A stretch of DNA of 64,000 nucleotides from Eunapius fragilis (taxonomy: Eukaryota > Porifera > Demospongiae > Spongillida > Spongillidae), in assembly GCA_963681505.1 (NCBI GenBank), contig OY811974.1, positions 13,309,565 to 13,373,564 on the forward strand, read 5' to 3'. Of the stretch, positions 6,679 to 63,346 are shown in pieces. The translations under genes and the position numbers were made by a program. The notes under the pieces are model-generated. The model was not told the origin of the DNA. It saw nothing but the letters and a program-made list of their open reading frames with translations, and did not search any database. Position 1 is the first letter of the stretch; each line of letters opens with the position of its first letter.

Positions 6679-6751
<73 letters not shown>

Positions 6752-16740: not shown

Positions 16741-16954
16741 TGCACACAACATATAATCTATGCACGCAACATGTTGCCTAATATGTTAAAGCAACACTCA
16801 CCATGTATGATGGTTCCGTCAGATGGTCTCTAGGCCAGTGCAGGGTTTGCATGCAGAATAGACAAGGAAAGTCAACAGAACTGGAATTTTGAGATACTGG
16901 AAACAAACACCATACCCTGTTGTCGCTCGACACTTGTTTGAACCTTTAGCTGCT

Positions 16955-20578: not shown

Positions 20579-20579
20579 C

Positions 20580-21500
20580 TCCAGGATGAACAGCACAAGG
20601 TTGAGTATGTGTGCCCCTGGTGAACAGCACAAGGTTGAGTATGTGTGCCCTGGTGAACAGCACAAGGTTGAGTATGTGTGCCCCTGGTGAACAGCACAAG
20701 GTTGAGTATGTGTGCCCTGGTGAACAGCACAAGGTTGAGTATGTGTGCCCCTGGTGAACAGCACAAGGTTGAGTATGTGTGCCCTGGTGAACAGCACAAG
20801 GTTGAGTATGTGTGCCCTGGTGAACAGCACAAGGTTGAGTATGTGTGCCCTGGTGAACAGCACAAGGTTGAGTATGTGTGCCCCTGGTGAACAGCACAAG
20901 GTTGAGTATGTGTGCCCTGGTGAACAGCACAAGGTTGAGTATGTGTGCCCTGGTGACCAGCACAAGGTTGAGTATGTGTGCCCTGGTGAACAGCACAAGG
21001 TTGAGTATGTGTGCCCCTGGTGAACAGCACAAGGTTGAGTATGTGTGCCCTGGTGACCAGCACAAGGTTGAGTATGTGTGCCCCTGGTGACCAGCACAAG
21101 GTTGAGTATGTGTACCCTGGTGACCAGCACAAGGCTGAGTATGTGTGCCCTGGTGACCAGCACAAGGTTGAGTATGTGTGCCCTGGTGAACAGCACAAGG
21201 TTGAGTATGTGTGCCCTGGTGACCAGCACAAGGCTGAGTATGTGTGCCCTGGTGACCAGCACAAGGTTGAGTATGTGTACCCTGGTGACCAGCACAAGGC
21301 TGAGTATGTGTGCCCTGGTGAACAGCACAAGGTTGAGTATGTGTGCCCCTGGTGAACAGCACAAGGTTGAGTATGTGTGCCCTGGTGACCAGCACAAGGC
21401 TGAGTATGTGTGCCCTGGTGACCAGCACAAGGTTGAGTATGTGTGCCCTGGTGAACAGCACAAGGCTGAGTATGTGTGCCCTGGTGACCAGTTACAAGGC
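20580..21500. repeat. 33/34-bp minisatellite
   Basis: About 27 copies of CCTGGTGAACAGCACAAGGT followed by TGAGTATGTGTGC. Units are 33 bp, or 34 bp when one C is added, and vary at two sites (AAC/ACC and GTT/GCT), giving long open frames on both strands. Switching between 33 and 34 bp breaks each frame, and there is no start, signal or splice context, so I read it as non-coding satellite. Confidence 0.92.
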
Positions 21501-21632
21501 CTGTATGCTGCTTAACACCTATGCACCTAGTTCAAGAAATATGACCAAATGACATTCGATGTGAAGAGATTGAAAAACAGGTGCACAACAGACACGGTGA
21601 GTTAAAATGAAATGCTGATTACATCACCACAT

Positions 21633-26744: not shown

Positions 26745-27046
26745 TTTAGTGGCACGTGCGCCCGCATTGACTCGTTTCCATGGATAATGCAAATCAGCGG
26801 TAACTTACTAGCTTCGCATCCGCGCCCGCGAGGCCTATTTTAGTGAAACACGAAACCATTCCCATCCCGCACCAACGTTTATACAACCAGTTTTTCCACA
26901 CATTTGAGTCAGATCCGCTACTCAAAACTCAGCTGTGAGGCGGACTTATTAATTTCTGATCTTTACCGGATATTACAGTCGGATACCATGGGAAACTAAG
27001 TCCGATGGAAACTTATTCGTAGTTATTAAGAATTATTTCTGCGAAT
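26745..27046. promoter_or_regulatory. Shared ATG13/PCSK7 upstream region (bidirectional)
   Basis: The two start codons are divergent and only 302 bp apart, so both core promoters and 5' UTRs must lie here or overlap. It is moderately GC-rich near the ATG13 end (CATCCGCGCCCGCGAGGCC at about 26818-26836). No clear TATA box was seen. Bidirectional promoter use is inferred from spacing. Confidence 0.55.
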
Positions 27047-37455: not shown

Positions 37456-38520
37456 TGGTTAGGATTTTCGATTCAAAACGAAGATGTTGATTATGTAACA
37501 TCATTGATATCGCGCAGGCGTATCTGTCTGATCGATCGCGCCTTCAATGTTATGCCGTACCAGAAATACCTAGGATCTTAAAATAAGAATATATATAATT
37601 CTTAAGAGTAAGCTACTTTTCTAAAGCCTTGTAAGATGTTTATAAAAAATTTAAACCGGCTCTTGTAAGAATTACCTTAATTAAAAACAAAACTGGATTA
37701 GGCGTCTTCTACTTTTAAAAACAAAACTGTGCGCTAAATACCTGCAAATGAATTAAAATTGAGTACTCAAAAAGTTGAGAAGTAAACTTAAGTAGGCAAA
37801 AGGGAGGTTGGCATGGCCTGAAAGAGAAAAGGAGGCGTTTAAAGGGTATCTTTATGTAACAGTTGCACAATTGCTGCAAATTAGCAACAGTGTACAGTTA
37901 TGAACAAACGTTGACCACGGTGAATGCAGGGGGTGTCTATTTCTACCTTCTAATGAGGTTAATATTCAACTGTAGGCATAAGAGTTAATAAGACTGCCTA
38001 AGAACAAAACTAATCTTATAAGAATCGACACGGTATAGGATTCCATATAGGAGTATTGTACGGAATCTTAATCATAGATTGACCAATGTTAAGTCACAAT
38101 AAACTTTAATGAAGAAATACGACACATTATACAGTGAATTAAACACTTCGGCCTCACACACTGGATGCATGTGCGTTCTCAGTATGTAAATATAAACACG
38201 TGGCTTTACAATACATGGCATACTCTGTATACGATCTCACATAAAACGCGTAACTACTGCATCATTGCCGTTAATATACTAATCTAAGAACTGCAAGATA
38301 CTAGTGACTTCCACTTAGCACTCGAAATATTTTTTGTGAAGTGACATGGAGTGTGATGCATCAACCTTTTTTGTTGTGCAAGTAGTTGACATCATCTATG
38401 ACATAATCAGGGTGTTAGCATGGCCACTTCAAACGTAATTCTTTAAATAGAACAAGCCGTATTTGTTTATAAGTAATTTCACGTGACGTTGTTGACGTTG
38501 CCATTTAACCATTATATATA
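37456..38520. other. Intergenic DNA upstream of DAGL, no gene recognised
   Basis: AT-rich unique sequence. The last 60 bp before the DAGL start contain CGTGACGTTGTTGACGTTGCC (two CGTTG/TGACGT words, CRE-like TGACGT) and TATATATA directly before the ATG, too close to act as a TATA box for that start. Confidence 0.4.
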
Positions 38521-40632
38521 ATGCCTGCGCTCGAGGCGTGTTGTAGAAGATGGGAATTCGGTAGTGATGATTTGGTTTTCCCTGGTTTCGGTTCGCTTAT
38601 CGTTCGCATAGCGTGGCTGCTGGGGACTGTGGTCGCAGTGGGCTATTTCAGCGAGGCGCTCGGATGTTCACAGTCGCACCTCCTGACTGGCTTCACGTTC
38701 GCTGTTATCGCAATCATTATGATAACCATCGTCATAGAAGGCGCCATTGTGCTGGTCAGCGCCCGCGGGCCCATCGTAAAACCCAAGAAGCGATGGCCTG
38801 TCAAACACCTGCTCCACCTTCGACTGTTTGTGTTTCTGTGCGAAGTGGTGCTACTTGTTATCGGTACAGGACTGTCCTTCACTTCAGCTAGCAACGACGC
38901 CTTCGTTAGCCACGCTAACGGCAGCAACGGCAGTAGCAACGCGGTGGGGGACTGCCCCAAACTGCATCAAGCCTATCTCCTCGTGCAGGTTATCGCCGTC
39001 ATCGACTGGTGTGTGTTGGTTATGCTTGTCGTCTTCACCGTCCTCTACCTCGACCCCTGTCACTGCTATTCGGTGCGGTTTGACCTCTCGCCATTGGCAG
39101 CTGAGACAGCCCGCCATCTGGAGGGAACGGCAGCGGAGACAGCCCGCCATTGGCACGCCGTTGAGAGCGCATGGGAGAGACGTTTCCAGGTGGCATGCTG
39201 CTTTGCCGGGAGCGACGACAAACACCAGCTGGCCTACCGGGAAGTGGCGCAGCTGTTCGCCCATTTCTTCGGCGACATGAACGTCGTCATGTCCGACGTG
39301 GCCGCCGGGCTTGTCCTCCTGCAGAAGCAACACTTAGCCAACAGGCAGCGCGACCCTGAGGAAGCGGGCGGGAGGCCCGTGGACCTTCGCAGCCGCGACG
39401 ACGTGGAGGCGTTTAAGAGTGCTGCGTACTTCATGAAGTACGCTCTTGCGGTGTACTCGTGGCCCCTGTACACGTACATGAACCCCCTGTGCGGGTGCTG
39501 CAAGCTGGTCCGACGCCTCTCCTGCTCGCCGCGCTCGGAACCACCGAGCCACGTTGTTGTGGGCGACAACTGCTGCAGTTGCTACTTCGCCGGCATCAGG
39601 CAAATAGCTGATCTAGACGACACAGACATTGTCTACGTGTCGCTGGCAAACGACCTGTACCAGTCCCCCTTCTTTGTCGCGCTGGACCACGATTGCGCGT
39701 CTGTTGTGGTGTCCATACGCGGTACGCTCAGCATGAAGGACGTTGTGACGGACCTGGTGGCCCACCCTAAACCCATCGAGCTTCCCGACAGCCCCGGGTT
39801 CACCGTCCACAAGGGAATGCTCCAGACGGCCATGTGGATACATGACAAGCTTCTTCAGGAACGCATATTGGAAGAAGCCTTTCGGAGTGCCCCCGAGTAC
39901 AGCCTCATCATCGCAGGCCACTCCCTGGGCTCTGGGTGCGCCTGCATCTTGGGGATGCTGCTCCGACCCCGGTACCCAGACCTTCACTGTTACTGCTACT
40001 CCCCGCCCGGCAGCGTCGTCAATGAGGCAGGGGCCAGGTACACTGAGAGCTTCATCACCTCGGTCACGCTGGGACAGGACCTGGTGTCGTGCGCCAACGT
40101 AAACACCTTCCACGCGATGAAGGAAGACCTGGTGAGGGTGATTGAGGGGTGTAAGAAGCCCAAGTACCGCATACTGCTGGAGGGCGGGCTGGAGACAACG
40201 TGCTGGTGCCTGGGGAAGGGGGTGGTGTTTCACGATCGCACAGTTACGAGGGGCGAGGAGGAAGAGGAAGGGGAGCATGGGCCTGGGGAGGAGCTCAAAC
40301 CCCTCCACAGCCCCGACCCAGAGAGCAGTCTAAGCTTCACTCCTATTATCTCCAAGCACCTGGCAAAGACTGAAGAGCACCCAGAGAAACTGTTTCTTCC
40401 AGGTAGGATCATCCATCTTGTTGACGTTGGTGAGGCCAGGGGCTATTGTGGCAGGGAGAGAAGGTTACGGCCGTACTGGACACCTTGCACGGCATTCGAT
40501 AAAATCCAGGTATCACCTGACATGATACGTGATCATTTCCCCGATGTACTGTTTGCTGCAATGGACAAAATATTGGAAGATACAAACAGCAACATTGAAG
40601 GATCAACTGTCAACGACTCCATGCTGCCATAG
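38521..40632 (+). CDS. DAGL: sn-1-specific diacylglycerol lipase (DAGL), intronless
   Basis: Integral-membrane serine lipase that cleaves diacylglycerol to 2-monoacylglycerol (the endocannabinoid 2-AG in animals). One uninterrupted 703-codon frame. The N-terminus (RRWEFGSDDLVFPGF) matches the conserved start of DAGL-alpha and -beta and fixes the ATG. Four membrane spans lie at about 24-46, 58-86, 100-122 and 150-178, the usual DAGL topology, followed by the lipase domain. The triad is Ser468 (AGHSLGSG), Asp520 (LGQDLVSC) and His632 (PGRIIHLV). A Cys-rich stretch precedes the domain, and an insert of about 50 residues before the His (EEEEEGEHGPGEE..., Ser/Pro-rich) matches the position of the regulatory loop. 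Length is close to DAGL-beta (672) and shorter than DAGL-alpha (1042). The lack of introns contrasts with its many-exon neighbours and may reflect retroposition. Confidence 0.94.
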   Translation: MPALEACCRRWEFGSDDLVFPGFGSLIVRIAWLLGTVVAVGYFSEALGCSQSHLLTGFTFAVIAIIMITIVIEGAIVLVSARGPIVKPKKRWPVKHLLHLRLFVFLCEVVLLVIGTGLSFTSASNDAFVSHANGSNGSSNAVGDCPKLHQAYLLVQVIAVIDWCVLVMLVVFTVLYLDPCHCYSVRFDLSPLAAETARHLEGTAAETARHWHAVESAWERRFQVACCFAGSDDKHQLAYREVAQLFAHFFGDMNVVMSDVAAGLVLLQKQHLANRQRDPEEAGGRPVDLRSRDDVEAFKSAAYFMKYALAVYSWPLYTYMNPLCGCCKLVRRLSCSPRSEPPSHVVVGDNCCSCYFAGIRQIADLDDTDIVYVSLANDLYQSPFFVALDHDCASVVVSIRGTLSMKDVVTDLVAHPKPIELPDSPGFTVHKGMLQTAMWIHDKLLQERILEEAFRSAPEYSLIIAGHSLGSGCACILGMLLRPRYPDLHCYCYSPPGSVVNEAGARYTESFITSVTLGQDLVSCANVNTFHAMKEDLVRVIEGCKKPKYRILLEGGLETTCWCLGKGVVFHDRTVTRGEEEEEGEHGPGEELKPLHSPDPESSLSFTPIISKHLAKTEEHPEKLFLPGRIIHLVDVGEARGYCGRERRLRPYWTPCTAFDKIQVSPDMIRDHFPDVLFAAMDKILEDTNSNIEGSTVNDSMLP

Positions 40633-46075: not shown

Positions 46076-47449
46076 TTAAGAAGCAACCACGAGGGGAGGG
46101 CAGCCTTTAAATTGCTTGTAACGAAACACGGGGCTGAAAATGTTGCTTGTAACATAATCCATGTAGGTCCCTTCAATTACGGAGTCGTCAGGTTTGGCAA
46201 CACCAGTACTTTCCCCTTGGGCACCTCCACTATAATAGCAGGTCTTCTTTGTGTTGTCCCAGGTACGGTCATATTGTTCTCCCAGGAAGCTTCTCGGTGG
46301 TCCACTTGGTGGGTTGACTGTGATGATGTACAATGGCTCTGTGGAGTCATATCCAGCGGGCAGAGCACCAGAGTAATGAATCATTGAGATCGGGATATTC
46401 CAGAATTGTCCTACAAGGATTTGGAAGGTAAAGTGTAATCATAACCTTGTCCAATAAAATTTATTATTCAGGCTACACTTCTTGTAATCCATGAACCAGC
46501 CTCTTGGGTAGTTAATACCAGTGAATATGAATGTCAGTTTCTTTGCTCCATTAATTAAGGTTGAACAAAATTTTATGCCTGCGATCCATGACAGCAATAA
46601 AAAGCACTAATCTTAGTGAAGGCAATTGTACATGACCTTGTGCTGCTTTGTATAGTAACACTTCTGAATCAAAATGATCTGTATGCACTTTTGCTAAGAT
46701 ACAACCTGACTAAAGTGATATTGCATTGTTCAATAGTGTTCTCACAACAGCTGCACATATTTCATCATCTGTGTTGCCTCACAATGCAGCAATGCCAGGT
46801 GTAATAGGTAAGACTATCAATGTGATTGATTGTACCCACTTCCATCACCCACACCCTCTTCTATAATCCACCTCCAATTCCTACCTCCACATCTAATATA
46901 CCCCCACACCAATTCCACATCCAAATGATTCGGAATCACAAGGGGTAACGCCCTCACCAATGATTCCATGAGATGTTGGTCTAAGGTTCAGTCCGCGAGA
47001 TATAACAAAACGAATCATCTTCACGCCGAGCGTCTGTTCACACACAACCCACGAGACCAGATTGGGGCTGCCACCATTGGGAACAGAGACCCTCACCCTA
47101 TCACCGATCTGTCTGATCCCAATGTCGGCCTGCTGGTATGAAGTAACCTGGGCACCGTTAACAAAGGCAGTACACCCATCCAAGTCCACCAGTATCCTCT
47201 GGCAGGCACCACTGCTGTCAATGGCAAGTATTCCAATCTTAGTGATAATGTTGATGGGAACAGGGTTAGAGCCGCTGATAGCTGGGCTGTAGTAGGCATT
47301 CACAGAGGTATAGGTGTCTGATACAAGATTAAACGTCTTGTTGGCTGCTCCGTGGACTTCATAGCACAATGCAGGACCGTCCAGTGGGTTTGATATATTC
47401 AGCAGCAGTGGCACGGCATAGAGGGGGTCTCCAATGACTGTGTCATTGA
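46076..47449 (-). other. ITI_HC_C domain exons of gene B
   Basis: The last two exons (47449-46958 and 46410-46076) encode about 275 residues matching the C-terminus of inter-alpha-trypsin inhibitor heavy chains. VIGDPLYAVPLL corresponds to their GDPHF start. HGIIGQF, rebuilt across the splice, matches HGLLGQF, and VIEGTYMDYVTSNIF matches LIDGAYTDYIVPDIF at the end. The acceptor at 47449 is preceded by a C-rich tract (G run on plus, 47477-47490). Confidence 0.88.
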
Positions 47450-50400
47450 CTGTGGTATTGCCATGGGTGTGGTAAGGGGGGGGGGGGGGAAAGGGACAAG
47501 TGTGATAACATGATAAAGCACTACAGTTGGTGTGTGTGTATGCAAGAGTGAATGTGAGGTACCTATCACATCTGTTTAATGGTTATTGAATGTGTACACT
47601 GTAATTATATAGCACCAATGTACATAACTTACGCTCCTCTTCATCTATACATAGCACTGTGCATATACTTTATGCATGAGTACTTTCTGTAATCGCCTGG
47701 TTAAAACAGGTACCCATGGAAAACCCAAGGGAACCCAGCAGACTTACCAATGGTGGCAGGTGCTGGAGTAGGAGTTGTTCCATTGATTGTAATCACTGTT
47801 GTGTCATTTCCCGGAGCGCGAGGAGGGTTTACATTCAGCTGTGGTACAGGCCTTACTATCACATTGGTGATGTCAGTGGAGTTGGTAAATCTAGCACAAG
47901 CCACAGTGCTATTGGGATAGAAGACTATGGTAGTAATGGTCTCCCTCCTGGTCGTTGTCCCTGCAATATGGATAGTCACAAAAACATGAAGTAGCCAGTG
48001 ACGGCTATGTGGCTGCCATTCTCACCTGTATTGTAGTTTGCCGAAATGGTCACAGACGTTTCAGTGGCAACAGTGAGGTCTGATTTGAAGCACACCGGAG
48101 GCACTGCGGGGTATGTACCGTTTGGAGTGATAGTTTCCAATGTAATCTCTAAAACATGAGGGGCATCACAGTGGAACTGTGTGTAATAGCTATGGAAACC
48201 TTACTATGGTCATCCACTATCAGGACCTGTGATGGAGGGGAGACAATGATCACCCTTGGATTGGGGGGCTGAAGGGATACTGTGAAGGTCTGGTTTGGTT
48301 GGAAAGCAACTTTGTTGTCAACAATTGGAATATTTGTACAGAAGGGTGTCAGAGGTGAGGTATTTGCTGGAATGGTGATCACATATGACCCAGCTGAAAA
48401 GTCGCTAGTATCTGGGTGAGGTGGAGGGAGTGGTGGGGTAGGTTATTGTGAAGGTATGCCAGCTCTCTTCCTCCCTTACCTCTGGCACTGGGGACTGGGT
48501 CCTCACCAGCAACAACTGTTACATTTATAGGAACATTAGCACTTGGGGTAGCCACAATGCATACCACAGCTGGACCCTTGCTCTGGTATACCGTGTACAG
48601 TGGGCGGGTAAAGCTGACATTGACAACTGCACAAGAAAAAGGTATGACACAGCCAAGCATTGATACAACAATCCATCAACCACCCTATACAAGTCACATA
48701 CCACTTAGGTCTTGAATGGTGACTGTGGTCTCTGGTATTGGTCCCTTTGGATAAAGGGTTGGGGAGGGAGTGTTGAAGACCACTTTGAAGGTCTTGTCCC
48801 CAGTGGATGCCATCCCATTGTCCAAGATGGGGATCTGAGTACACTTGATGTTCTCACTGGGTAGGAAGGTCAGGGGTGTCTGGACATGGGTGTAGTCAAC
48901 ACCAGCTAGAAGAGGAGGGGGTGAAGGTCAGGGCAAGATGTAGGTAAGGGAGAGGGTCCCCTACGTGTAGCTGTCAGTGGAACAGTATTCACGTTGACTG
49001 TAATGCTCTTAGTGGTACTTTCCAACTTCAGAAGACACACTTGTGCTGTATTGTCGCTCTTTGATACAGTGGCAGTACTGTTCTCAAATGAGAATGGTAC
49101 AGCTGAAGGAGATAGAGAGACCCCATCATTACACACATCACATGATGGAGGACACCTTTCTTACAAGAAGAATCTACAATGGTGACCTGGGCAGTGGATG
49201 GAGTCCCAACTTTGACCACACCTCCAGTGGAGATGGCCTGTTGAATGGACACGTTGAACACTTTGTTATCTCCCTGGACACGATCATCCAATGTGGAGAT
49301 GTTGACACATGTCTGTGTACCAGCGGGGCCAGTAGGAAGGGTGTAGGGATAGGATCCATTTGTGAAATGCACCAGAGCTGTGGAGTTAAGATGGAGGTTA
49401 AGTGGGAACACATAGTGAGTTGTGGTATCTGTACTCACGTGTTGCTGCATTGGGTGCCACTATGGGATAAGCTATGATCACTCCCCTGATGTCACTGGCT
49501 GTCTCAAGGTCCTTGGTCACACACACTTGAGCAGGCTGTCCTTTTTGGGTCGTATAACTCGTGCTACTCAGGGTTACCGTGGGAACTGAAATATAATAAT
49601 TATGTGAAGTTATACTATTTTAGTACACACCTCCCAAATGTAGAAAAGTAACACACTAAGACTACTTAACATCTAATTTTCTCAGGTTGCGGTAGGGGGG
49701 GGGGGGTCTCCCATAGCAATTCCCCAATATGGAAAATGTGTGTGCATATCTGTGCTTATAATTCCAGATCTCCATATCTATGCTGACTGGCAAGATGACA
49801 CATTGTAAGGCTCCGCTTATAGGCCACCCTCCCGCCATAACCCGCTAATGTTTCCATGAACTTGGTCAGCTGCATTTCTGGAAATACAATAGTGCCCCTG
49901 TGTGATTATTAAAAGTTACAAAGAAGGGTTTGTGATTATGAAGACATTGATGTTTAAAGATGAGCCCTTTTCCCCTCTGGAGGTGGAGGCTAAAACACCA
50001 TAGTTGTCCACTATCAAGACTGACACAGCCAAGCATTGATACAACAATCCATCAACCACCCTATACAAGTCACATACCACTTTGGTCTTGAATGGTGACT
50101 GCGGTCTCTGGTATTGGTCCCTTTGGATAAAGGGTTGGGGAGGGAGTGTTGAAGACCACTTTGAAGGTCTTATCTCCAGTGAATGCTATCCCATTGTCCA
50201 AGATGGGGATCTGAACACACTTGATGCTCTCACTGGGTAGGAAGGTCAGGGGTGTCTGGACATGGGTGTAGTCAACACCAGCTAGAAGAGGAGGGGGTGA
50301 AGGTGAGGGGAAGATGGAGGTAGGGGAGAGGGTCCCCTACGTGTAGCTGACAGTTGAACAGTATTCATGCTGACTGTAATGTCCTGAGTGGAATTTTCCA

Positions 50401-53400
50401 ACTTCTGAAGACACACTTGTGCTGTATTGTCGCTCTTTGATACAGTGACAGTACTGTTCTCAAATGAGAATGGTACAGCTGAAGGAGATAGAGAGACCCC
50501 ATCATTACACACATCACATGATGGAGGACACCTTTCTTACAAGAAGAATCTACAATGGTGACCTGGGCAATGGATGGAGTCCCAACTTTGACCACACCTC
50601 CAGTGGAGGTGGCCTGTTGAATGGACACGTTGAACACCTTGTTATCTCCCTGGGCACGATCATCCAATGTGGGGATGTTGACACATGTCTGTGTACCAGC
50701 GGGGCCAGCAGAAAGGGTGTAGGGATAGGATCCATTTGTGAAATCCACCAGAGCTGTGGAGTTAAGATGGAGGTTAAGTGGGAACACACAGTGAGTGGTG
50801 GTATCTGTACTCACGTGTTGCTGCATTGGGTGCCACTATAGGATAAGCTGTGATCACTCCCCTGATGTCACTGGCTGTCTCAAGGTCCTTGGTCACACAC
50901 ACTTGAGCAGGCTGTCCTTTTTGGGTCGTATAACTGGTGCTAGTCAGGGTTACCATGGGTACTGAAATATAATAATTATGTGAAGTTATACTATTTTAGT
51001 ACACACCTCCCAAATGTAGAAAAGTAACACACTAAGACTACTTAACATCTAATTTTCTCAGGTTGCGGTGGGGGGGGGGGTCTCCCATAGCAATTCCCCA
51101 ATATGGAAAATGCGTGTGCATATCTGTGCTTATAATTCTACAAATTTAAGATCTCCATATCTATGCTGACTTGCAAGATGACACATTGTAAGGCTCCGCT
51201 TATAGGCCACCCTCCCTCCATAACCCGCTAATGTCTCCATGAACTTGGTCAGCTGCATTTCTGGAAATACAATAGTGCCCCTGTGTGATTATTAAAAGTT
51301 ATGAAGAAGGGTTTGTGATTATGAAGACATTGATGTTTAAAGATGAGCCCTTTTCCCCTCTGGAGGTGGAGGGGTGTGGGGGACTAAAACACCATAGTTG
51401 TCCACTATCAAGACTGACACAGCCAAGCATTGATACAACAATCCATCAACCACCCTATACAAGTCACATACCCCTTAGGTCTTGAATGGTGACTGCGGTC
51501 TCTGGTATTGGTCCCTTTGGATAAAGGGTTGGGGAGGGAGTGTTGAAGACCACTTTGAAGGTCTTGTCTCCAGTGAATGCTATCCCATTGTCCAAGATGG
51601 GGATCTGAACACACTTGATGTTCTCACTGGGTAGGAAGGTCAGGGGTGTCTGGACATGGGTGTAGTCAACAGCAGCTAGAAGAGGAGGGGGTGAAGGTAA
51701 GAAGAAGATGGAGGTAAGGGAGAGGGTCCCCTACATGTAGCTGTCAGTGGAACAGTAGTCACGTTGACTGTAATGCTCTTAGTGGTATTTTCCAACTTCT
51801 GAAGACACACTTGTGCTGTATTGCCACTCTTTGATACAGTGACAGTACTGTTTTCAAATGAGAATGGTACAGCTGAAGGAGACAGAGAGACCCCATCATT
51901 ACACACATCACAGGATGGAGGACACCTTTCTTACTAGAAGAATCTATAATGGTGACCTGGGCAGTGGATGGAGTCCCAACTTTGACCACACCTCCAGTGG
52001 AGGTGACCTGTTGAATGGACACGTTGAACACCTTGTTATCTCCCTGGACACGATCATCCAATGTGGAGATGTTGACACATGTCTGTGTACCAGCGGGGCC
52101 AGCAGGAAGGGTGTAGGGATAGGATCCATTTGTGAAATGCACCAGAGCTGTGGAGTTAAGGTGGAGGTTAAGTGGGAACACATAGTGAGTTGTGGTATCT
52201 GTACTCACGTGTTGCTGCATTGGGTGCCACTATGAGATAAGCTGTGATCACTCCCCTGATGTTACTGGCTGTCTTAAGGTCCTTGGTCACACACACTTGA
52301 GCAGGCAGTCCTTTTTGGGTCGTATAACTGGTACTAGTCAAGGTTACCATGGGAACTGAAATGGGATTGATTATGGCCTTCTTTGTATGTGTGTTTAATA
52401 TTGACAATATGGTATATTTGGTATGAGCTTTTAATGGTTAATATAGAAATTGAATGCAAGGTGTAAGGAACATTTCTGCTGCTATTATGTGGCATGTGGT
52501 TTATGGCTATCATGTCTCACCATCATCCTCAATGATAGTAATCCTGCTCTCCTGAGCACCTTGGCCTAGCCATGGCTGTGGAGGTATACTGAATGTGACG
52601 CGGAATTCTCGGTTTGGTTCCAGTGCAATGGAATCATCTATAATAGTTATGTTCACACACAGCTGACTAGCTGCAGCTGGGAAGGCGGCTGTAATACTAC
52701 CACCACCAAAGTCTCTACCAACTGGAGTGATAAGAAGGTCAATGTGTGTTTGTGACATAGCTCATCACAGGGAGCTTGCTCTGGTTACCTTGAGCACTCC
52801 TGGGGGTTAGTTCACCAGGGCTGAATGTTACACTGAAGTCCTCTGGTGTTGTCAGCGTCTTGTTGAGACATACGCTAACAACGCCTGCATTCTCAAGGAC
52901 ACTGTAGGATCCAGAGGAGAACTGGACCAGTGCCACTAGTAGAAATGGGACTAAAGGTAGAAGCAATTTTTATGTCTAAGGAGGTTACCATTTTTATTGA
53001 TGATGTTGACAGTAGCCACGTTCAATACTAGTGCAACTGGTGGTCTGGGAGAGTTCAGTACTACCCTGAAGGTCGTGGATGACCCAGCTATTTGGCTGTT
53101 GAGAATGGCCACGGGTACTGACACTGTGGTGATCTGGTTACTGTCAGGTGGAATGTTAATGGTCTTAGAGATGCCTGTATAATCCTGACCATCTGAGCAA
53201 AAAAATATTAGTTTAAAATAGGCTAGTTGTATTGTCTAAGCACTTATACATACCTATTGCAGTTACATCCACTGTTGTTATGGTAACTGAGGTAACAACT
53301 CCAGATGCTCCATTCCTTTGAACTATCAAATTGACAACTCCAGCATCCACAGTAGTGTTGTACACTGTTGGGTTAAACCCCACCTGCACTGTCATGGCTG

Positions 53401-56400
53401 GAGAAAAATGAAATTACGAAGATATGAATGCATTGGGTTAAAAGAGTGGTGAAGGTGAATGTATTGGGTTAGAAGAGTGGTGAAAATGAATGTATTGGGT
53501 TAGAAGAGTGGTGAAAATGAATGTATTGCGTTAGAAGAGTCGGGATGAATGCATTGGGTTAGAAGAGTGGTAATGAGTAGGAAGAAGTATGACACTACTT
53601 TAATAGCCCTTCCCATACCCTTACCACCGTCATCATCAAGTATGGTTACTGTAGCATTTGGGTATGGGGCCAGCAGAACTGACGATGATAGTTTGAGATT
53701 GAACTGCCTGTTTTGTTGTGGTGTTTTGTTTCCGATGATTGTGAAATTCACCAGCTTCTGATCTTCTCCAGGGGCAAACATGAGGGATGATGTGACATCA
53801 GAAATGTCTGTGTTAACTGTAAGGGGTTGGACAAGAGCACATGGCATTTAAGCAGTACTGTGTGTATGAGCAAGAGATGGTCTTACGTTGAGCAGTCAAT
53901 GCTTCAAAACCCACGTTCACTGTTACTGTGCTGAGCACCTGTAGGTCATCTTGCTTCACTACCGTCACAGAAACTACACGCGAGACATTTCCTTCAGCGA
54001 AAGTGTAGGCATTGGCTGAAAAGCTGAAAGCTGGTACTGAGTGGGTGCATATGTTGAACATTATGATCACATAGCACTCTGCTGTTTGTCAACTGTACTG
54101 ACCTTGTAGTGCCTCCATCTCATACCCTGCAGAGTGACCAAATGATATTTGCTCATTGATACCCTGAACATTGACAAATAGGCCAGCCTTCGGGTTTGTG
54201 TGCCTGATGTAACGGGATAAGCCTGCTTCTGGGTTGGAGATTATTGCGCTACGTCCGCACTCTGATTGACCTCCTTGGTCATCAGCACAGAAGAGTGGGT
54301 ACCACTTGTCCATCTTCAAAGTACCATCCAATGTTGCCTCATCGTATGTTGTGTTGTCCACGTAGATTTGCTTCGGATCATAGAAATCCTTAAGGACTGC
54401 TATTGTCAAGTAAAATTGACTTGGTAAGAGAGCTGACTTTAAAAAATCTTTAACTTCCCAAGATGTTACCACATAGCTGTTGAGGTACTGTTCCACGGGA
54501 GCTATAGTTGCCATGTAAGGGTCTCCAAGACCTGACGCAGGCTTGTTGGAGCCATATCCCTGTTGATACTGCATCACATAGATGGCTTTGTTTGATTCTA
54601 TAGTTATAAATGTGTCCTGAGGTATCAGCAGCTCCTTCATACCACCCTGTGTTATGTTGTACGTCCTGCTGGAGACATAACCCCTAGACCCTGACATGGT
54701 GACAGTGATTGTTGTGCATGATGCCATGGCAATAACTCTGTACACGTCCCCTCCAGTCCTTCCACCAATGGGAGCAGAAAAGAACAGTTTGCCCCAAGTG
54801 GCAGTCGGTGTCACCTGCTCCACCATATGGTCACATGAGGCATTATTCACATACCCACATGTGTGGCCACTGTACACAGCTATGGGCCTGGAAGACTTTA
54901 TGCTGATGCCTGTTAGGTCTGTTTTCTCACCCTGAAAGTAGTAGGTTTGCCTCTGCTGAAGGGCCATAGTGTAGTTGTAGAAGCCATTAAGTGGCTTAGT
55001 AATCTGTGCAAATCCAGCAATTGGTGCAATGCGGTAAGGTCTCGGGGCATACAGGTCCTTGGTGAGGTATTTAGTGGATATGGAATAGGATATGCTGACA
55101 TTTTGACTTGCTACTACCATAAAACCAGGTAAATTAGCTACCACTGCTGGGTCAGGGTCACTTCCACTTGAGAATATGTAATATTCATAAGGGTATTGGA
55201 CGTTTGGGTTGAAGAAGCTGTAGTTGACAGTTGGGGCAGCGACAAAGGTATCCAAACTGGCAGAGGCAGCATTGCCTCCATACACTGAGACCTTGCGGTT
55301 GTTTGCTGCCTTTATGTACACACCCTTGTCTACTTCTCTGTTGTTGCCTAAGACATTTGATACACTTGTCGGCTTCAGCTCAAAAGGGAGTGATATTCTT
55401 GTAGCTCCATAGGCTGGAACTGTCAGATTTTGAGTCGTTGTCAGGTACTTAACAGTGACGGTAACATTGTTTGGTTCATCTGTGGTGATGGTTAGAAACA
55501 GTGACTGTGGCTCTTTTTGATTTTCCAAAAACCCAACATAGAGCTCGCTGGCTTTCGTAGATGGTCCCCCTCCAACCTCTGTCCACATGGAGAGGAGAAA
55601 GAGAACAGAGTATTAATAATAATGTATGTGTACAATGGCTCATCTAACCTCTTGATTTGATTAAACTAACAATAACAATCTTTAATAACTGGTGATGGTA
55701 AAATAAATGTTGATGCTAAAAATTATTATTTTAATGTAATAAGATGCATAAATGCATGTACAGGATTATACTGAGCTCAGTACAATCCTGTACGTGCATT
55801 TATTACATTAAAATAATCAAAGTGTTCTGAGCTGGGGTGGACATGCATTCCCCTTGTGGCAGAGTCTTATGGAGCTTGGGGCAAAGAAGCTGTTTCACGG
55901 CTTGCATCGCACCTTGCCACAAGGAACAACACCCCCAAGTCCAAGGTGGTCTCCAGCATGTATGGCTGCCTGAATATGACCCTTGTGCGGGCCAATGCTC
56001 AGGCCCTCCTCTTACGGGGTGGATGCCAACTCCTGGAAGGGAACTTAACTCTGTACTGAGGGGTTTTAGTTTTCAACATTGTATCGTGTTATTCTCTCCG
56101 GCAATGGTTTGGTACTATTATTATTTTTAATATAGACATACACATGAACATATATTATTTTTAGGTGTCTTTAAAACATATCCGCTAGAAACTTCCATGT
56201 AGGATTTTGACCCCGACTATGAACTCATTAAAAATACGCGACCCGTCTCAAACAAGACTCCCGACGATTGGATCGTTTAGCTTGTTAGGGGGCGTCTCCA
56301 AACTATTTTGGAAAAGATTAGATAAAGCCATCTTGACGTTAGGGGCGGGGGGAGGGTCAGTCAGGCTCGTTTTCAGATGTACTGAAGAAAAAAATGGAGT

Positions 56401-59400
56401 CCGAACTCCACAACCTTCTATCAATGACGTTAAGAGGGGGGGGGGGGGGGGGGGGGTTATAATGAAACGTCACAATGACGTTAAATAGTATGGAGACACC
56501 CCCTTATAGCAATCGAGCTAGAAGTCAAATACATGTATGAGCAGTTTCGTCATTGTTTTATGTCGCAGAACCGCGCGGTACAAGAGAGCAAAAAGGTTAC
56601 TGCCCGGCAGTCCGGGAACATGGTCTCCTCCTTCTTCTTGGCAACGCGTATCTCGGGATAGGAACACTTTGAAAATCTCAGAAAAGTTCATATTTTGGTA
56701 AACAATCGACTATACGGTCTATGTAAGACGCATAATTAGATAACTTGTAAAATGTAATTTTAGATATCTTTAAATACTAGTGAACAACTAGAGTTGTAAC
56801 CTTTTTTTGTTAGTGAAGTTGTTTTTCTCAAAATGCCTTCACGTCAGTAAATGAAACGAGCGAAACGACGTGCGAAATACCTTCAAGTTCGAGACGATGT
56901 TTAGAATAGGCACGGGCATGCAACCACATCCTACAGCGATGCATATTCACAGTGATTTCAGTGATTTGGGTACATGTATGAACAAAAAATCAAGGAAACA
57001 AGTAACCAGAATCATTCTCTACGAGAAAGATGGTGGTTTATAGGATTTGAAGGCAATTGGTGGTGTAAAAAGCAAGGAAACAAGGTCTTATCAGAAGGGA
57101 AGAAGTAATAGTCTTATAGTTAACACATTTCTAGGGCATGTGTTGTTTGTGTGCTAAACATAGGGCTATTACATTTTCCCTTCTGATAAGACCTTGTTTC
57201 CTTGCTTTTTACACCACCAATTGCCTTCAAATCCTATATACCACCGTAGAGAAAGTTTTTAATTACTTGTGCAAGTAATAACAATATATGCTTGTTATTT
57301 ATTATAATATACACAAATGTGAAAACCAAATCATCACCTGACCATCCTTACAGCCTGCACACCTTGCTAGTAGAGCTCTAGCATTTGCTCGCACCAGAGT
57401 TATGCTATTATTGAATAATAATAATAATAATGGAAGACTCAAGAATACATAAGCCGGTTAACATTGAAGTCTCAGATACTGCCTGGAAACCAGCTCAGCT
57501 TATTTTGAGATTTGGGGGCTTAGGCCTTCGTTCTCTCTCTTGCCATGCCGCCACTGCCTTTATTGCTTCGCTTTCCTTATCAGGCTTGGGCCAATCCAAC
57601 AATCACCATCTTCAGCAGGCAGTCATAGCCTATAACTCCAAGGTCTCCTCACATCATGCAATCATGGCTGAGTCTGCCCTCACTTCTCCCACAACTCAGC
57701 GAGAGCTATCCAGCAAGATTGATGAGGATCAATTCAAATCTTTGTTGGGAGCATCCTACCCAGCCGACAAAGCCAGTCTCCTGTCTGTTTCAGCCCCTCA
57801 TTTATCTTTATGGGTGTCAGTGGTCCCTTCCATGTGCTTAGGTCTACATATGGAGTCTACTGAGTTCCAGACTGCAGTGAGGTGGTGGCTAGGTGTGGGT
57901 GTTGTAGGACTGTGTGCCCGTTTTGCCAGGATGTGGCTCTTGATCCCCTGGGTCACCATGCTGTAACCTGCAGGCATGTGGGAGATGTGGTGATAAGGCA
58001 CAATCACTTGTGTGATGTCTTTGTGGACTTCTGTCAGTGAGCTCATCTGAGTGTGAGTGTGGAGAAGGGTCATGGCCTTACGAGAGATCACAGCCACACC
58101 AGACCTGCATATGTGCTCATTGCTGGGTGGGACAGGGGCAGGCCTGCAGCTCTTGATATCACTGTAACATCACCTCTCTGCCCAGCCATACTAAGGGAGT
58201 CTGGTGGAACGTCTGGTGCAGCTTCTATGGCAGCGGAGACCTGCAAGCTTCTCACCAATGGTCCCAAATGTGAGGAATTGGGGTGGACGTGCATTTCCTT
58301 AGCTGTCAATACGTTCTGCAACTGGGATAAGGAGGCTCATCTCACATTCTCTAATTGGCATCCCACCTTGCCATCAGCTTGTCCTCTCCCAATCCTTACA
58401 TCTTGGCAGACATTTATAGTAGGATGAACTTCACCTTGGTCAGGTCCATTGCCAGAGCCATCTTGGCAAGGGAGCCCTCGTGACTTTTATTTATTTGTGG
58501 GCGCATGATTATGTAATAATATATGGGCAACTATAAACTCTCAACATAAATGGCTAACAACAACACAGCCTAACATATACTCATACTAACGCACTCAATC
58601 ACTCACACACAGAACTAAAAATCACCTAAGCCATCAAAGGAACTTAATCTTAATGTTCCCATAACAGAGGAGGAATTCCTCTCTGGATTGCCACAGAAAG
58701 GCACTGGAGTAAGAACTGGTAGGATTGTGAGTCTCCAGTGGTTTGGTGCAGACAATGGCCAAGGTCCTTAAGAGAGGACAATGTTTTGGCACCAAACACA
58801 CCAAGAGACTCACATGCTATGGGAACAAAGAAGTACTTAGCTCCAAGAGAAGAATACTACTTCCTCTTTTGGGATTTAGCCTCTGCTGCTGCCAAACCTG
58901 GTCCTCTTTCAGCAGTGGAGAAATGTGATGGTGCCAAGGTCTCTCTGCATGTAGCATCCCACACAAGGAGTTTTCCCCTCTTTCCAGGGAACCATTGAAA
59001 TACCATGCATCTGGCCTTTTACCATCTGATCTAGCTTCTCCAGAGGCTCCAAACAAGCAGGTATTTTTTTGCAGCTGACAGGGCTCTGTGGATGATGTCG
59101 TTTAAGCTAGAATGCCTGGAGTGGTGACCTTCACTCCATCTACAACTGAGGCCATGAGTAGCAAGGTCATTCACGTGAGAACCACAATGGCAGCAAGTAC
59201 AAGAGAATGTTTTACAATGTAACACATAATAACTGTCAATTAAGGTTAGTTAATGATCATGGAATGCTTTGCCCTGATGTTGGCTCTAACAAGGGTAAGG
59301 TTTAGCTTCCCATATAGAGCTGTGATGGCTATGGACTTTGGGCAGTTCTGTCTGGTACCCAATCAGGAAGCAAGCTGAGATAATGCCCACTTAGCTTCTG

Positions 59401-60554
59401 TACCCCAGCAACCATATGTTTCTACTGCAAGTGGGATGGACACCCGTCCCAGTTCAGCACATTTGGCATTATTGGACCTATGCTTCCGTTTCTTGGCGAC
59501 AAAGGCTGCAGACCCCGCTGTCACACTCGCTTCAGGTAAACTGTTAGTGAAGTCAAATGCAGCCAGCTTGTCCATCATCCAGTTTGCAGCAAGAACATCA
59601 GCTGGTCGTTTGCTGTGCTCATGAAGACCATAACCACTCCCCACCTCTACCTGCTCATGAAGACCACAATCACTCCCCACTTCTACTTACTCATGAAGAC
59701 CATAACCCCTCCCTCTACCTGAACACCAACACAGGCTCTCCGGCATGACTCCACAAAAACATCTATATAAGAAAACATGAACTGTGTCTAGTGAGATAAC
59801 AGATAGCGGTATATATTATGGTTGAAATCTGCGCAAAAACAGAGAACTATAATACAAGTAGCTACACTTGCATTGTTTTCCATGTTCTTCTTCTCGATCT
59901 CTTCTATCCTTTATTCTTATATACCTCACAATTTCAAATGATGCCATTTGTACCAAACGTTGTGAAATGATTCCTTCACGAACCAGCAGTGTGCATGGCG
60001 TTGAATTAATGTTTTATCTTCATGATGGCCAGCTGCTAATTCATAGTTTGCTGCTACAATGACTAAGGCTCTGTATTTGTATTTTTCAATGTTAAATCGA
60101 CTGACCATCTACACGTAGACGAAATCGGTCAAAATCATCTACCCACAGACCTAATTCAGAGCAATTTTCGGGTATTAATATCCTCCAAAAAAATATTCAT
60201 TTTCTTACTGCACCATCTAAACAGGATAAGCAACACGTGGGTAGGTAGCCTTTACTCCATCGATAAGTAGGATACTATATACAATCGTCTACATGTACAG
60301 CGGCGGATTGAGGGGGAGGGGGGGGGGGGGGGGGGGGAATTCAGATGCTTCATAACGCGGAACTCGCAAAACTTCTGCAGTGACGGATACCGGGGAAGGG
60401 GGGGGGGGGGGGGGGGGGTCGAGGAGGTTCCTTCAAGCCGATCATGAATAAATTAACGTGAATTGAAGTACGCAAATCAACCTGGTTCAACCATATCTTC
60501 ACCACATTAACCACTTGGCGACAATGCGGTCAGCTACCACAGAGGCTGATATGG

Positions 60555-60589
<35 letters not shown>

Positions 60590-63301
60590 TCAGACTTGAT
60601 GATGAATAGAATTAAGTATCAATACTATTAACGATGCAATTAAGAACACCCCACGTGATATAGCGTATCATCAAGATGGCAAGCAAACGTGTTCACTCAC
60701 CTCATTGATTCGGCAAGTATCTTGAGTTACTTTTCGAAGAAAAGCAGAATGTAATTATGTAATGTGCTAAAAGATTTACGGATTTAAGGCGCCATACACA
60801 AAGCAACATGTTGCGTGAATTTTGTAAGTTTATCCGAAATAAAAAATGTAATTGCATTCATTGAGTTGCACGCCGAACGGGGGGCAACCATTGTTCGCCG
60901 CCATTTTCTTTCTCCCAAGTTTAAGGCTTCAATATAGATTATTCATGTCCGACACCCCCCTTATAGAATATCGAATTCCTGTATCCGCCCCTGTCTGGGG
61001 TCTGGGGGGGAGCTTATACAGCACTCCCCCATACCCCCTAGTTGGAGAAGGAGAGGCTGTGGCCCCCTCCCGCACCCACCCCCTTTTGTACCCTCTGCCC
61101 TTTGCGCCCCCCCCCCCCCAACTCTAAATCCTGCGTCCGCCCCTGATGTAGATGATATGCGTCTACGTGTGTCTAGACGGCAATTTAACATTATGACGTA
61201 ATTGGAAGGTATTCTCTTTTGAATAGGCGAAGTGACGTTTTTTCCTCAAAATGCCTTTGCCTTTGTGTCAATAAAAGAATAAAGCCAAGCGACACACACC
61301 TCCTGAGCCGAGAGTAAGTATTGAAAGGTATCAATTGTCAGAAGCGTGCTTAGCCAATGCCCGCGTTCATGATCATTACGAAGAGAAGTGACGCCGAAAA
61401 GAAACGTGCTGTTGTACGCAATTATCGAGAAAAACATCAAACTTCCTAGAGGCTACGTACGTTATCAGAAAACCCAGAGCCGAGTCTGGCTGCTAAAGTA
61501 AAATGACAACCCGGAAGCAAAGCTAGAACCGAGAGAAAGAAAACCAACTGAGAAGAAACTCTTCTGAATAAATCTACCACACAACCAAAAAAAATGTTTG
61601 TTGTTCTACGTGATTGTACATGCTGCTGCAGGTGGATTGCAAGCATAGCACGAGACTCAATCACAGTCATAATGCATGTATGGAGCCATACAGTACCAAT
61701 GCATTGGGTCTGGGCACGAGCCTAGGGAAATGCTGCGAGTGTCAAACACATCTTTGTCCACCCCAACGTACACTTTGCAGCTTCTATTAGAAACATGCAT
61801 CCTTTTAAAAATCACTACTGAATTGTCCGCGCCCTAAACGCGTAGGTTGCAAATTTATAAATGGTTCGGACTGCTTCAACTTACTTATTATCAAATACAA
61901 AATCGAGCGTAGCACCTTTATTCCTGCACGGAACGTATTTGAGTTCTATACTACCCCCATGTCCTATTGCTTGCAACCACAAATAAAAACAAAAAAAAGG
62001 ATCAATGGAAAGAGAGGCCCAAAAGGTACCAGAAACCCACAACGGCATATAAATCATGCAACTTATAGCGCTATCGTTGATTGGAGTGCATGTATAGCCC
62101 CACGACGGAAAATTGCAATGCGGATCGATGGATTAAGTGCCCTTGTCTCGTGCTAAAACACTTATGATGGGTTTGATCAAAGGAACAATTAATATTACAA
62201 GTAAAGAAAAACATTCTCTAACGAGAAAGTTGGTGGGATATAGGAATTGGAGGCAATGATGCACGTGTTAAAAGGAAGGGAACAAGGTTTTGAGAAAAGG
62301 GTAATGGGACAAAAATCCTATATTTAGCACTTCTTTTGGTTCTGTTACATTTACACGTGCTCAATATAGGATTTTTGTCTCATTACCCTTTTCTCAAAAC
62401 CTTGTTCCCTTCCTTTTAACACCATCATTGCCTCCAATTCCTATATCCCACCAACTTTCTCGTTAGAGAATGTTTTTCTTTACTTGTTTCCTCTATTTTT
62501 TAATTTATCGATTATTAATACTGGCAAGCGCCCCCCCCCCCACCCCCCACCCACCCACCCACCACCCCCCACCCACCACCCCACCCCTCCCCCCCTCCGC
62601 TTGAATTATCGTCACGAGCTGACGCCCGCTTTTGTTTGGGATCACTGTAAGGAACGCGGGAGAATTCTAACACGTCGTCTGCTCTCCTCCTTTGTTTGCA
62701 CAATTCTAAATATACGTATATGTCGCCATGGGAACGCTTCTATATTACACTACGCATTACGTAATGTATATCATTTTAATGCTTTATTCATATAATTGAT
62801 ACCTGAAGATGTCCTTCCAGGAGATTCTAAAGCGATTGGTATAACTTGCGCTCTTTAAAACCATTCCTATTCCGAGTTGTACTCGCGCGAGAAGAATTAG
62901 ACGACGACGGAGAAGAATTGGCCTGGGGACGAGGTAAAACACGAACTTTTTTGTTCACTTAAAGCAAACAGTTTGAGGCCTGGAATAAAACACTAAAATG
63001 ACCGTCTTTGCCTTCTGGTTCGATAGCAACAAAGAGCTACACTATCCGTTTCTTGGTACATGTACGCGAGTTATACGCGGGTCGCGTTTAAAAAAATGAT
63101 ATTCACGACCCGGGTCAATTCCTATATAGGAACTACTATCGTAGTTCCTGATACGCGTACTTCTTACATATTAAGCCTGATTACGCAATGCAAGAATAAC
63201 GTACCTTTAAAACGCTGCACGCTGAGGGGTAGTGCCAACGTTGCTGTCACTGCTGTCGCAATGAAAACGGACAGGGACAACATAGCGGGTGTTTTCCCCA
63301 T
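46076..63301 (-). CDS. Gene B: secreted IgGFc-binding / Calx-beta / ITI_HC_C protein
   Basis: Twenty-six exons keep one frame (6216 nt, 2071 aa) that closes exactly at a stop: 63301-63205, 55578-54103, 54036-53887, 53816-53625, 53397-53254, 53192-52989, 52935-52789, 52721-52521, 52355-52209, 52147-51935, 51872-51735, 51675-51472, 50961-50815, 50753-50541, 50478-50341, 50281-50078, 49585-49439, 49377-49165, 49102-48965, 48905-48702, 48626-48480, 48393-48205, 48148-48026, 47960-47748, 47449-46958, 46410-46076. Every intron is phase 1. The order is signal peptide, IgGFc-binding region (about 33-524), eleven Calx-beta-like domains of two exons each (525-1796) and an ITI_HC_C domain (1797-2071). 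A large adhesive, Ca2+-dependent extracellular protein is inferred; sponge aggregation factors are the nearest functional analogy. The weakest step is exon 1, joined across a 7.6-kb intron on phase, signal peptide and TATA evidence alone. Confidence 0.82.
48702..52355 (-). repeat. Three tandem copies of a four-exon Calx-beta unit in gene B
   Basis: Exons 9-12, 13-16 and 17-20 have identical lengths (147, 213, 138 and 204 nt) and nearly identical sequence. Unit starts are 52355, 50961 and 49585, spacings of 1394 and 1376 bp. The introns are duplicated too, including a segment of about 430 bp at 49600-50030 and 51000-51420 with a G run. Each unit encodes two complete Calx-beta domains. The same unit occurs in gene A (exons at 3111-2228 and 547-1). 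Confidence 0.95.
53405..53575. repeat. 31-bp minisatellite in gene B intron 4
   Basis: Five copies of GAATGTATTGGGTTAGAAGA GTGGTGAAAAT with small changes. Gene A has one copy of the same word at about 4800, in the equivalent intron. Confidence 0.88.
54103..55578 (-). other. IgGFc-binding-type N-terminal exon of gene B
   Basis: One 1476-nt exon encodes about 492 residues. Motifs of the IgGFc_binding family found in FCGBP and many invertebrate secreted proteins are present: SSRPIAVYSGHTCGY, CDHMVEQVTPTATWGKLFF, RTGGDVYRVIA and YVMQYQQG. The exon joins in phase 1 on both sides. Function of the region outside mucus and extracellular-matrix proteins is poorly known. Confidence 0.88.
55826..56059 (+). 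mobile_element. Retroelement tail fragment, gene B intron 1
   Basis: The frame reads [20 protein letters not shown], then CLNMTLVRANAQALLLRG, matching the C-terminal tails at 31650-31800 (SRLASHLAG..., [16 protein letters not shown]) and 58380-58490. It starts abruptly, so it is a 5'-truncated copy. Confidence 0.65.
56288..56503. mobile_element. PIF/Harbinger-like MITE with TTA target duplication
   Basis: Termini GGGGGCGTCTCCAAACTATT and its inverse, with TTA on both sides (56285-56287 and 56504-56506). A G run of about 22 bp lies at 56437-56456. The termini and the internal GACGTTA...G-tract resemble the 10622-10937 element (GGGGGCTTGTCCAAACTAT), so both belong to one family with a TWA target. 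Confidence 0.82.
56998..57270. mobile_element. Foldback MITE, copy 1 (ACAAGTAA termini)
   Basis: Arms of about 110 bp are inverted: ACAAGTAA/TTACTTGT at the ends, and CAAGGAAACAAGGTCTTATC / GATAAGACCTTGTTTCCTTG inside. The middle is about 60 bp. It is a relative of 62197-62487. Confidence 0.87.
57343..58490 (+). mobile_element. Retroelement C-terminal fragment, gene B intron 1
   Basis: A 178-codon frame from 57430 (FGGLGLRSLS, DEDQFKSLLGASYPADKASL, then SAPH) is followed after frameshifts by [39 protein letters not shown] and a tail MNFTLVRSIARAILAR. It parallels the 32389-31630 fragment and extends further upstream in the element, before the CCHC part. It is broken by stops at about 57963 and 58036. 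Confidence 0.68.
58640..59690 (-). mobile_element. Retroelement fragments on the minus strand, gene B intron 1
   Basis: One piece (59690-59360) reads SKRPADVLAANW, KCAELGRVSIPLAVETYGCW and WALSQLAS, the endonuclease-like part of the same family. The second (59230-58640) has a CCHCGSHVNDLATHGLSC zinc motif, SLNDIIHRAL and, after a frame change, CESLGVFGAKTLSSLKDLG and SVAIQRG, the C-terminal signature of a related element. Two different truncated copies are probably adjacent. Confidence 0.62.
60300..60590. repeat. Cluster of three long G tracts
   Basis: G runs at 60321-60337, 60398-60418 and 60557-60587. The first two are preceded by GGCGGATTGAGG and GTGACGGATACCGG, variants of the GGCGGATCCGG terminus seen at 13109, so they are probably left ends of broken G-tract MITEs. 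Confidence 0.7.
60976..61143. mobile_element. Nested remnants of GGCGGATNC-type MITEs
   Basis: TCCTGTATCCGCCCCTG at 60976-60992 is a right terminus. A GC-rich segment similar to 11090-11160 (GGGGTCTGGGGGGGAGCTTA...ACCCCCTAG) follows, ending in AAATCCTGCGTCCGCCCCTG at 61124-61143. Two elements are therefore abutted or nested. Confidence 0.6.
61144..62196. other. Part of gene B intron 1, no feature recognised
   Basis: Unique sequence with only short frames that lack similarity or splice context. Confidence 0.4.
62197..62487. mobile_element. Foldback MITE, copy 2 (ACAAGTAA termini)
   Basis: Arms of about 130 bp are inverted: ACAAGTAAAGAAAAACATTC / GAATGTTTTTCTTTACTTGT at the ends, and AGGAAGGGAACAAGGTTTTG / CAAAACCTTGTTCCCTTCCT inside. 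Terminal and subterminal words match copy 1 at 56998-57270. Confidence 0.9.
63205..63301 (-). other. Proposed exon 1 of gene B (signal peptide)
   Basis: An ATG opens MGKTPAMLSLSVFIATAVTA and LALP, a good signal peptide, and the frame reaches a GTACGT donor in phase 1, the phase needed by the IgGFc exon at 55578. A TATA box lies just upstream. Linkage across 7.6 kb is inference; the exon could instead belong to an unseen gene. Confidence 0.55.
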
Positions 63302-63336: not shown

Positions 63337-63346
63337 CTTTATATAC
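63337..63346 (-). promoter_or_regulatory. TATA box of gene B exon 1
   Basis: GTATATAAAG on the minus strand, about 36 bp before the proposed ATG at 63301. This implies a 5' UTR of only about 10 nt. A GTTGCTAAGAAACGG word lies a little further upstream (about 63364-63378). Confidence 0.5.

Follow-up and report, generated by a model that had tools for sequence, protein, structure and literature searches.

The question raised by this locus is whether an IgGFc-binding head, a long array of Calx-beta domains and a C-terminal cap, read along its minus strand, belong to one secreted protein and, if so, what such a protein would do. The window, i.e. the whole 64,000-base stretch of DNA that was analysed (C4:13309565-13373564), lies in a 218.9-Mb genome made up of 24 contigs, and the gene in question, denoted gene B, belongs to a tandem cluster of four copies at C4:13.275-13.424 Mb. 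Splicing of gene B from the raw strand, with splice sites and frame picked by hand at GT-AG, gave 26 exons on the minus strand (63301..46076) and a 2080-aa frame with no internal stops; once the GT-AG sites are set, every one of the 25 introns is in phase 1. Twenty-three of these introns measure 38 to 510 bases, with intron 1 reaching 7626 and the intron inside the tail 547. An earlier note on this DNA had claimed a 26-exon gene, which this open, phase 1 model bears out. The order which that note gave, from head to Calx-beta rod to C-terminal cap in an apparently secreted protein, also stands, being seen in the spliced frame, in the Pfam matches of head and rod, and in the next tandem copy, copy 4; a signal-peptide-like stretch was read by eye in exon 1. 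The features of the window are as follows.

63338 to 63345, minus strand: TATA box TATATAAA, 37 bases upstream of the gene B ATG; TATATAAA also precedes exon 1 of copy 4
63205 to 63301, minus strand: exon 1, with the ATG and signal-peptide-like stretch; 97% identity to copy 4 exon 1
55579 to 63204, minus strand: intron 1, 7626 bases; its copy 4 counterpart, about 4.95 kb long, has local blocks at 78-100% identity
54103 to 55578, minus strand: exon 2, the IgGFc_binding head, 492 aa in a single exon (PF17517, E 2.8e-41; dN/dS 0.71 against copy 4)
53625 to 54030, minus strand: Calx-beta 1 (exons C1a, C1b), from Pfam scan and splice model
52989 to 53397, minus strand: Calx-beta 2 (C2a, C2b), from Pfam scan and splice model
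52521 to 52950, minus strand: Calx-beta 3 (C3a, C3b), from Pfam scan and splice model; acidic residues best retained, by eye
51472 to 52355, minus strand: Calx-beta 4 and 5, forming repeat unit 1 (884 bases including introns; 95-96% identity to units 2 and 3)
50078 to 50961, minus strand: Calx-beta 6 and 7, forming repeat unit 2, from splice model and unit identity
48702 to 49585, minus strand: Calx-beta 8 and 9, forming repeat unit 3, from splice model and unit identity
48205 to 48626, minus strand: Calx-beta 10 (C10a, C10b), from splice model and Pfam scan
47748 to 48148, minus strand: Calx-beta-like 11 (C11a, C11b), its end rich in Pro/Thr; two-exon layout, no Pfam match alone
46958 to 47449, minus strand: tail exon a, 164 aa, putative core of a VWD-type cap, from paralogue comparison and structure models (dN/dS 0.06)
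47424 to 47429, minus strand: codons of Asp1813 and Pro1814, occupying the site where GDPH motifs have their D-P bond, here DPL; the Asp codon was mapped and Pro is the next codon in the same exon
46076 to 46410, minus strand: tail exon b, from QFW through the stop, 111 aa, from the splice model (dN/dS 0.38)
1 to 4750, minus strand: Calx-beta exons from the N-terminal part of tandem copy 2, in which no head was detected; the copy 2 tail lies just outside the window

Copy 4 begins 50 kb further on, start to start, and was spliced by a script requiring AG, GT and phase 1, which returned 36 exons, 2674 aa and no internal stops in the same order of parts. Its exon 1 differs from that of gene B at one of 32 residues, and the TATA stretch is common to both genes together with the neighbouring sequence. 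That copy 4 splices into the architecture of gene B without stops argues against head, rod and tail being two or three separate genes, a reading which we reject at the level of sequence. In copies 1 and 2 the arrays are shorter and a tail is present, with no head found within 13.265-13.433 Mb, and in copy 2 the frame of tail exon b is broken. As just two of the four tandem copies keep a detectable head, the full head–rod–tail order may be a local and recent state. The two copies without a detectable head, one copy with a broken tail exon, and the transposon-like frames and minisatellites which surround gene B could even suggest a chimera of local origin or a duplicate in decay, serving no special role; set against two copies of 26 and 36 exons that contain no internal stop, share a TATA region and have a dN/dS of 0.48 overall and 0.06 in tail exon a, we find this very unlikely.

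The head of gene B matches IgGFc_binding (PF17517) with 142.2 bits against a gathering cut-off of 25.6, so that the HMM check of this domain came out well over cut-off. Across the genome IgGFc heads match at four places, namely gene B, copy 4, a partial one on contig C3 and a distant one on contig C23, the last being followed by Ig-like frames when read by eye. A search of the open-licence literature found no paper describing the order of head, Calx-beta and tail, and brought up IgGFc with Calx-beta as domain names listed in a figure legend, in the part of that source which was accessible. The combination does not stand alone, given the second intact copy and the recurrence of the same tail after other Calx-beta and EGF domains.

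An IgGFc_binding domain forms the N-terminal part of FCGBP, a long repeat protein, and gene B resembles it both in carrying such a head in a long repeat protein and in a suggested VWD-type fold further along the chain; it differs in that DPH occurs in none of ten tails compared. Gene B might, like FCGBP, serve as an immune or mucus-type recognition molecule, in which the head traps microbes and the rod and tail crosslink into surface mucus. The head gene B does possess, and FCGBP itself, as described in the accessible text of PMC10880436, has 13 VWD domains, 11 of them with a GDPH site; in gene B, however, the head is followed by Calx-beta domains rather than VWD–C8–TIL repeats, and there is no direct sign of microbe binding. 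We consider such a use rather unlikely.

The rod occupies residues 525-1805, which match Calx-beta (PF03160) at E 1e-105 with 348.6 bits, above cut-off, in ten stretches at E<=5. Of the eleven Calx-beta domains that had been proposed, these ten are matched by the profile, whereas the eleventh exon pair, C11, shares the two-exon layout and alone gives no Pfam match. The pairs C4-C5, C6-C7 and C8-C9 form units of 884 bases, 95-96% identical with introns included. Copy 4 has 16 Calx-beta exon pairs (recognised through similarity to gene B, not by Pfam) compared with 11 in gene B, and its rod contains four three-domain units of 1379-1384 bases that are 95-98% identical, again with introns. Since these near-identical units differ between the two genes, the array seems to grow and shrink, and the rod to change its length, by exchange of repeat units. 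The rod also holds 30 N-glycosylation sequons, compared with 16.7 +/- 3.5 in 1000 shuffles.

Tandem Calx-beta domains are shared with other Calx-beta matrix and adhesion proteins, those of gene B being encoded by two exons each, but gene B departs from these proteins in that each of C3-C11 has two Cys and most domains have acidic stretches that look reduced. The 18 cysteines of its Calx region are all in C3-C11, with none in C1-C2, and 14 of the 16 Calx-beta domains of copy 4 have 2 or 3 Cys. Compared by eye with what we take to be the canonical Calx-beta calcium-ligand pattern, the acidic stretches are best in C3, partial in C1 and reduced elsewhere, with C4, C6 and C8 retaining some Asp. Calcium dependence appears doubtful for most of the rod, given the Cys pair in every domain from C3 to C11 and acidic stretches that look diminished in all but C3 and C1; a canonical calcium-dependent rod across all domains was rejected on this reading. 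Ca2+-dependent self-association by the rod, which the earlier note had put forward, is similarly disfavoured, most domains looking by eye poor in calcium-type acids and carrying a Cys pair.

Sponge aggregation factors, such as those of the Amphimedon AF cluster and Microciona MAFp3/MAFp4, also combine Calx-beta domains, a tandem gene cluster and a rapidly changing number of domains. Gene B shares with them its Calx-beta array in a tandem cluster whose copies differ in length, and probably a VWD-type domain, this fold being suggested for the tail by one of two structure models. It might then be a genuine aggregation factor, or a direct variant thereof, with Calx-beta arms and a C-terminal ring-forming domain assembling a self-recognition proteoglycan, and seven Wnt matches at about three loci in the genome fit the number expected of a sponge. 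Against this, the tails scanned gave no Pfam VWD match and gene B has an IgGFc head, which to our knowledge is absent from the published aggregation-factor description; we regard the reading as a serious possibility that falls short of being probable.

A comparison of gene B with copy 4 reveals how differently the parts have changed. Calculated over 14 of the 26 exons (1369 codons), with the repeat-unit exons omitted for want of a clear partner, dN/dS was 0.48 overall, 0.71 in the head, 0.54 in Calx-beta and 0.21 in the tail, the last splitting into 0.06 for tail exon a (15 synonymous and 3 non-synonymous differences) and 0.38 for tail exon b. Fisher tests gave p 3e-5 for head versus tail exon a and 6e-4 for Calx-beta versus tail exon a, and in pairwise comparison of all four copies (six pairs) 2-5 non-synonymous and 7-15 synonymous differences fall in tail exon a. 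The tail core is under tighter selection than the head (0.06 versus 0.71), these dN/dS values being rough, as dS itself differs by part (0.07 in Calx-beta, 0.15 in the tail), which also makes gene conversion between the copies likely. A head at 0.71 would suit the trapping of microbes by an FCGBP-like protein, although the value is not >1.

The tail is not confined to this cluster. With the gene B tail (the last 275 residues) as query, at least 31 matches and at least 15 tail-a loci on contigs C1-C4 were found, gene B included. Ten of 15 tail-a loci were aligned (alignment A1, where gene B is the window locus, L001), leaving out the near-identical L002, L003, L004, L009 and L010; two further alignments, A3 and A4, are plain translations, of which A3 took L004 and not L009 and A4 took both. 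The position of the tail intron is constant in all ten loci checked, with HG[LI][LI] before it and QFW after it, and the junction residue is Gly in seven, Ala in two and Ser in one. Upstream of the tail, L014 and L015 have a Calx-beta frame above cut-off, L013 a weak one (E 0.0098) and L008 an EGF_CA domain by Pfam, with L009 and L010 looking like L008 by eye; judged from position, these frames would lie in the same genes as the tails. L008, L009 and L010 (C1:21.90-21.99 Mb) are near-identical, have EGF-like frames preceding the tail, and have the Asp of Asp-Pro replaced (GPR).

The tail had been assigned to ITI_HC_C, the C-terminal domain of inter-alpha-trypsin inhibitor heavy chains. The gene B tail itself has no Pfam match at E<=5, nor at E<=10, so that the HMM check for ITI_HC_C, set beforehand as one able to overturn the observation, yielded no significant match. 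Two of the ten paralogous tails match PF06668 around HGLIGQF, L013 with 15.5 bits (E 0.014) and L014 with 12.8 bits (E 0.088), neither reaching the cut-off of 27. The tails of L012, L015 and L027, with junction residues Ala, Ala and Ser, did not match ITI_HC_C, and neither did a majority consensus of the tails or the reversed consensus, the junction residue being off in three of the ten source rows. Searching the whole genome exon by exon with PF06668, a search run without a positive control, returned nothing. A clean ITI_HC_C assignment is rejected on these results, the best paralogue standing at 15.5 bits. The LCF and IDG..DY stretches presumably characteristic of ITI_HC_C do resemble LCY and IEG..DY of the tails, which we treat as a lead.

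Other comparisons bear on the neighbouring families. Pfam VWD (PF00094) matched none of the ten tails at E<=10, Pfam scans of the parts of gene B contained neither VIT nor VWA, and none of the 22 VIT matches listed overlaps a tail locus. Using A1, in which the junction residue is off in three of ten rows, a profile search against solved structures gave one chance match, a cystatin, and a comparison with NCBIfam likewise gave one chance match. A VIT gene cluster with several equal scores is located at C11:6.94-8.11 Mb, where L048 looks by eye like a VIT-VWA gene of the VWA5 type.

The L013 tail, modelled with both exons, reached a mean pLDDT of 68.4 and a pTM of 0.64, residues 146-209 being mostly read-through intron and unfolded. 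In Foldseek its top four PDB rows were 24ne (Cypridina luciferase), two of MUC5B and RGMB, at E 2e-4 to 5.6e-3 and probability 1.00, and we take Cypridina luciferase and MUC5B to be VWD-containing; TM by query for these matches was low (0.26-0.32), the query holding the 64-residue unfolded stretch. VWD domains are carried by mucins and RGMB, according to the accessible text of PMC10880436. The gene B model, built from exon a only, had a pLDDT of 74.9 and a pTM of 0.72 and gave no VWD match in Foldseek, its first 20 residues lying below pLDDT 50 and so not confidently folded. We read the gene B tail as a putative VWD-type cap that has diverged and may have a link to ITI_HC_C. Should this reading hold, a mucin-type, VWD-like and perhaps heavy-chain-like module caps Calx-beta rods in an early animal lineage, and would give sequence-level access to the way in which rods of protein become part of an animal matrix.

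Taking these parts together, we propose with moderate confidence that the product of gene B is a rod-shaped protein, secreted to serve in the extracellular matrix or in adhesion, with a variable ligand-binding head, a Calx-beta spacer and an anchoring tail; expression, secretion, disulfides, anchoring and ligand binding by the head are here inferred. The animal it comes from is most likely a sponge, which the short introns, the Wnt matches and the Calx-beta clusters on C4 and C5 (150 of 325 candidates scored) all fit. The IgGFc-binding head would be the more variable, outward end and could bind a ligand, microbes, mucus or an adjoining cell. The Calx-beta domains would act as a spacer, its length shifting via unequal exchange of two- or three-domain units, and to judge from the sequence its cohesion probably owes more to one disulfide per domain in C3-C11 than to calcium. 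At the other end the cap (divergent VWD-type, possibly ITI_HC_C-related) would anchor or assemble the molecule in the matrix, and the same module would end other Calx-beta and EGF proteins of the genome. Coupling of self-association to matrix glycans is possible. With two intact genes having the same ends and differing rod lengths, rod length, head variation and tail anchoring would be separable in tests.

The vertebrate heavy chains offer a comparison for the cap, ITI_HC_C being, as we take it, their pro-domain. In vertebrate heavy chains a 239-244-aa pro-domain is removed as the chain attaches via its C-terminal Asp to chondroitin sulfate, as the accessible portions of PMC7170535 and PMC4661386 describe, which does not agree with the suggestion that ITI_HC_C is the hyaluronan-linking part. 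The gene B tail is like the ITIH pro-domain in its C-terminal position, in having 267 residues after the Asp compared with 239-244 aa, in an Asp-Pro near the tail start, and in the HG..GQF stretch of the two profile-matching tails; furthermore, the accessible text of PMC10880436 places GDPH of ITIH3, 5 and 6 within a domain of VWD-like predicted topology. Unlike the heavy chains, gene B has no VIT or VWA, carries DPL for DPH and falls below the Pfam cut-off. One could imagine that in the tail we see an early relative of the pro-domain of heavy chains which still uses the Asp-Pro step, that the precursor is cut at Asp1813-Pro1814, and that an ester bond then joins the Asp left at the C-terminus of the rod to a matrix polysaccharide. 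We rate this as a long shot and very improbable: DPL is found in eight of ten tails and DPH in none, Leu replacing His in all eight that have DP, and the ITI_HC_C relation is weak, with two of ten tails sub-threshold. In FCGBP D10, changing His to Asn inhibited cleavage, according to the same accessible text (PMC10880436), so with Leu here cleavage at Asp-Pro is not assured. A genome search for the link module (Xlink), run without a positive control, gave no match. If Asp-Pro processing were true, covalent protein–glycan assembly of the inter-alpha-inhibitor type would predate VIT-VWA heavy chains and be part of sponge-type adhesion.

Several neighbouring sequences were also noted. Another Calx-beta-like gene is present in the window at 6615-8940 on the minus strand, where two of three frames scanned match Calx-beta (E 0.004, below cut-off), and additional dense Calx-beta clusters, candidate classical aggregation-factor genes among the 150 of 325 candidates scored, occur at C4:12.56-12.71, C4:13.14-13.22 and C5:3.38-3.55 Mb. 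Gypsy-like retroelement frames were read by eye on the plus strand at 16950-19123, one with Integrase_H2C2 (E 6.7e-12), followed at 20378-22760 by long minisatellite arrays that are open in several frames. On the plus strand at 27023-27442 a Peptidase S8 pro-domain (E 9.6e-14) marks a proprotein-convertase-like gene start beside the adhesion cluster, and at 38509-40629, also on the plus strand, a 707-aa open frame matches Lipase_3 (E 4.1e-17) and looks diacylglycerol-lipase-like by eye.
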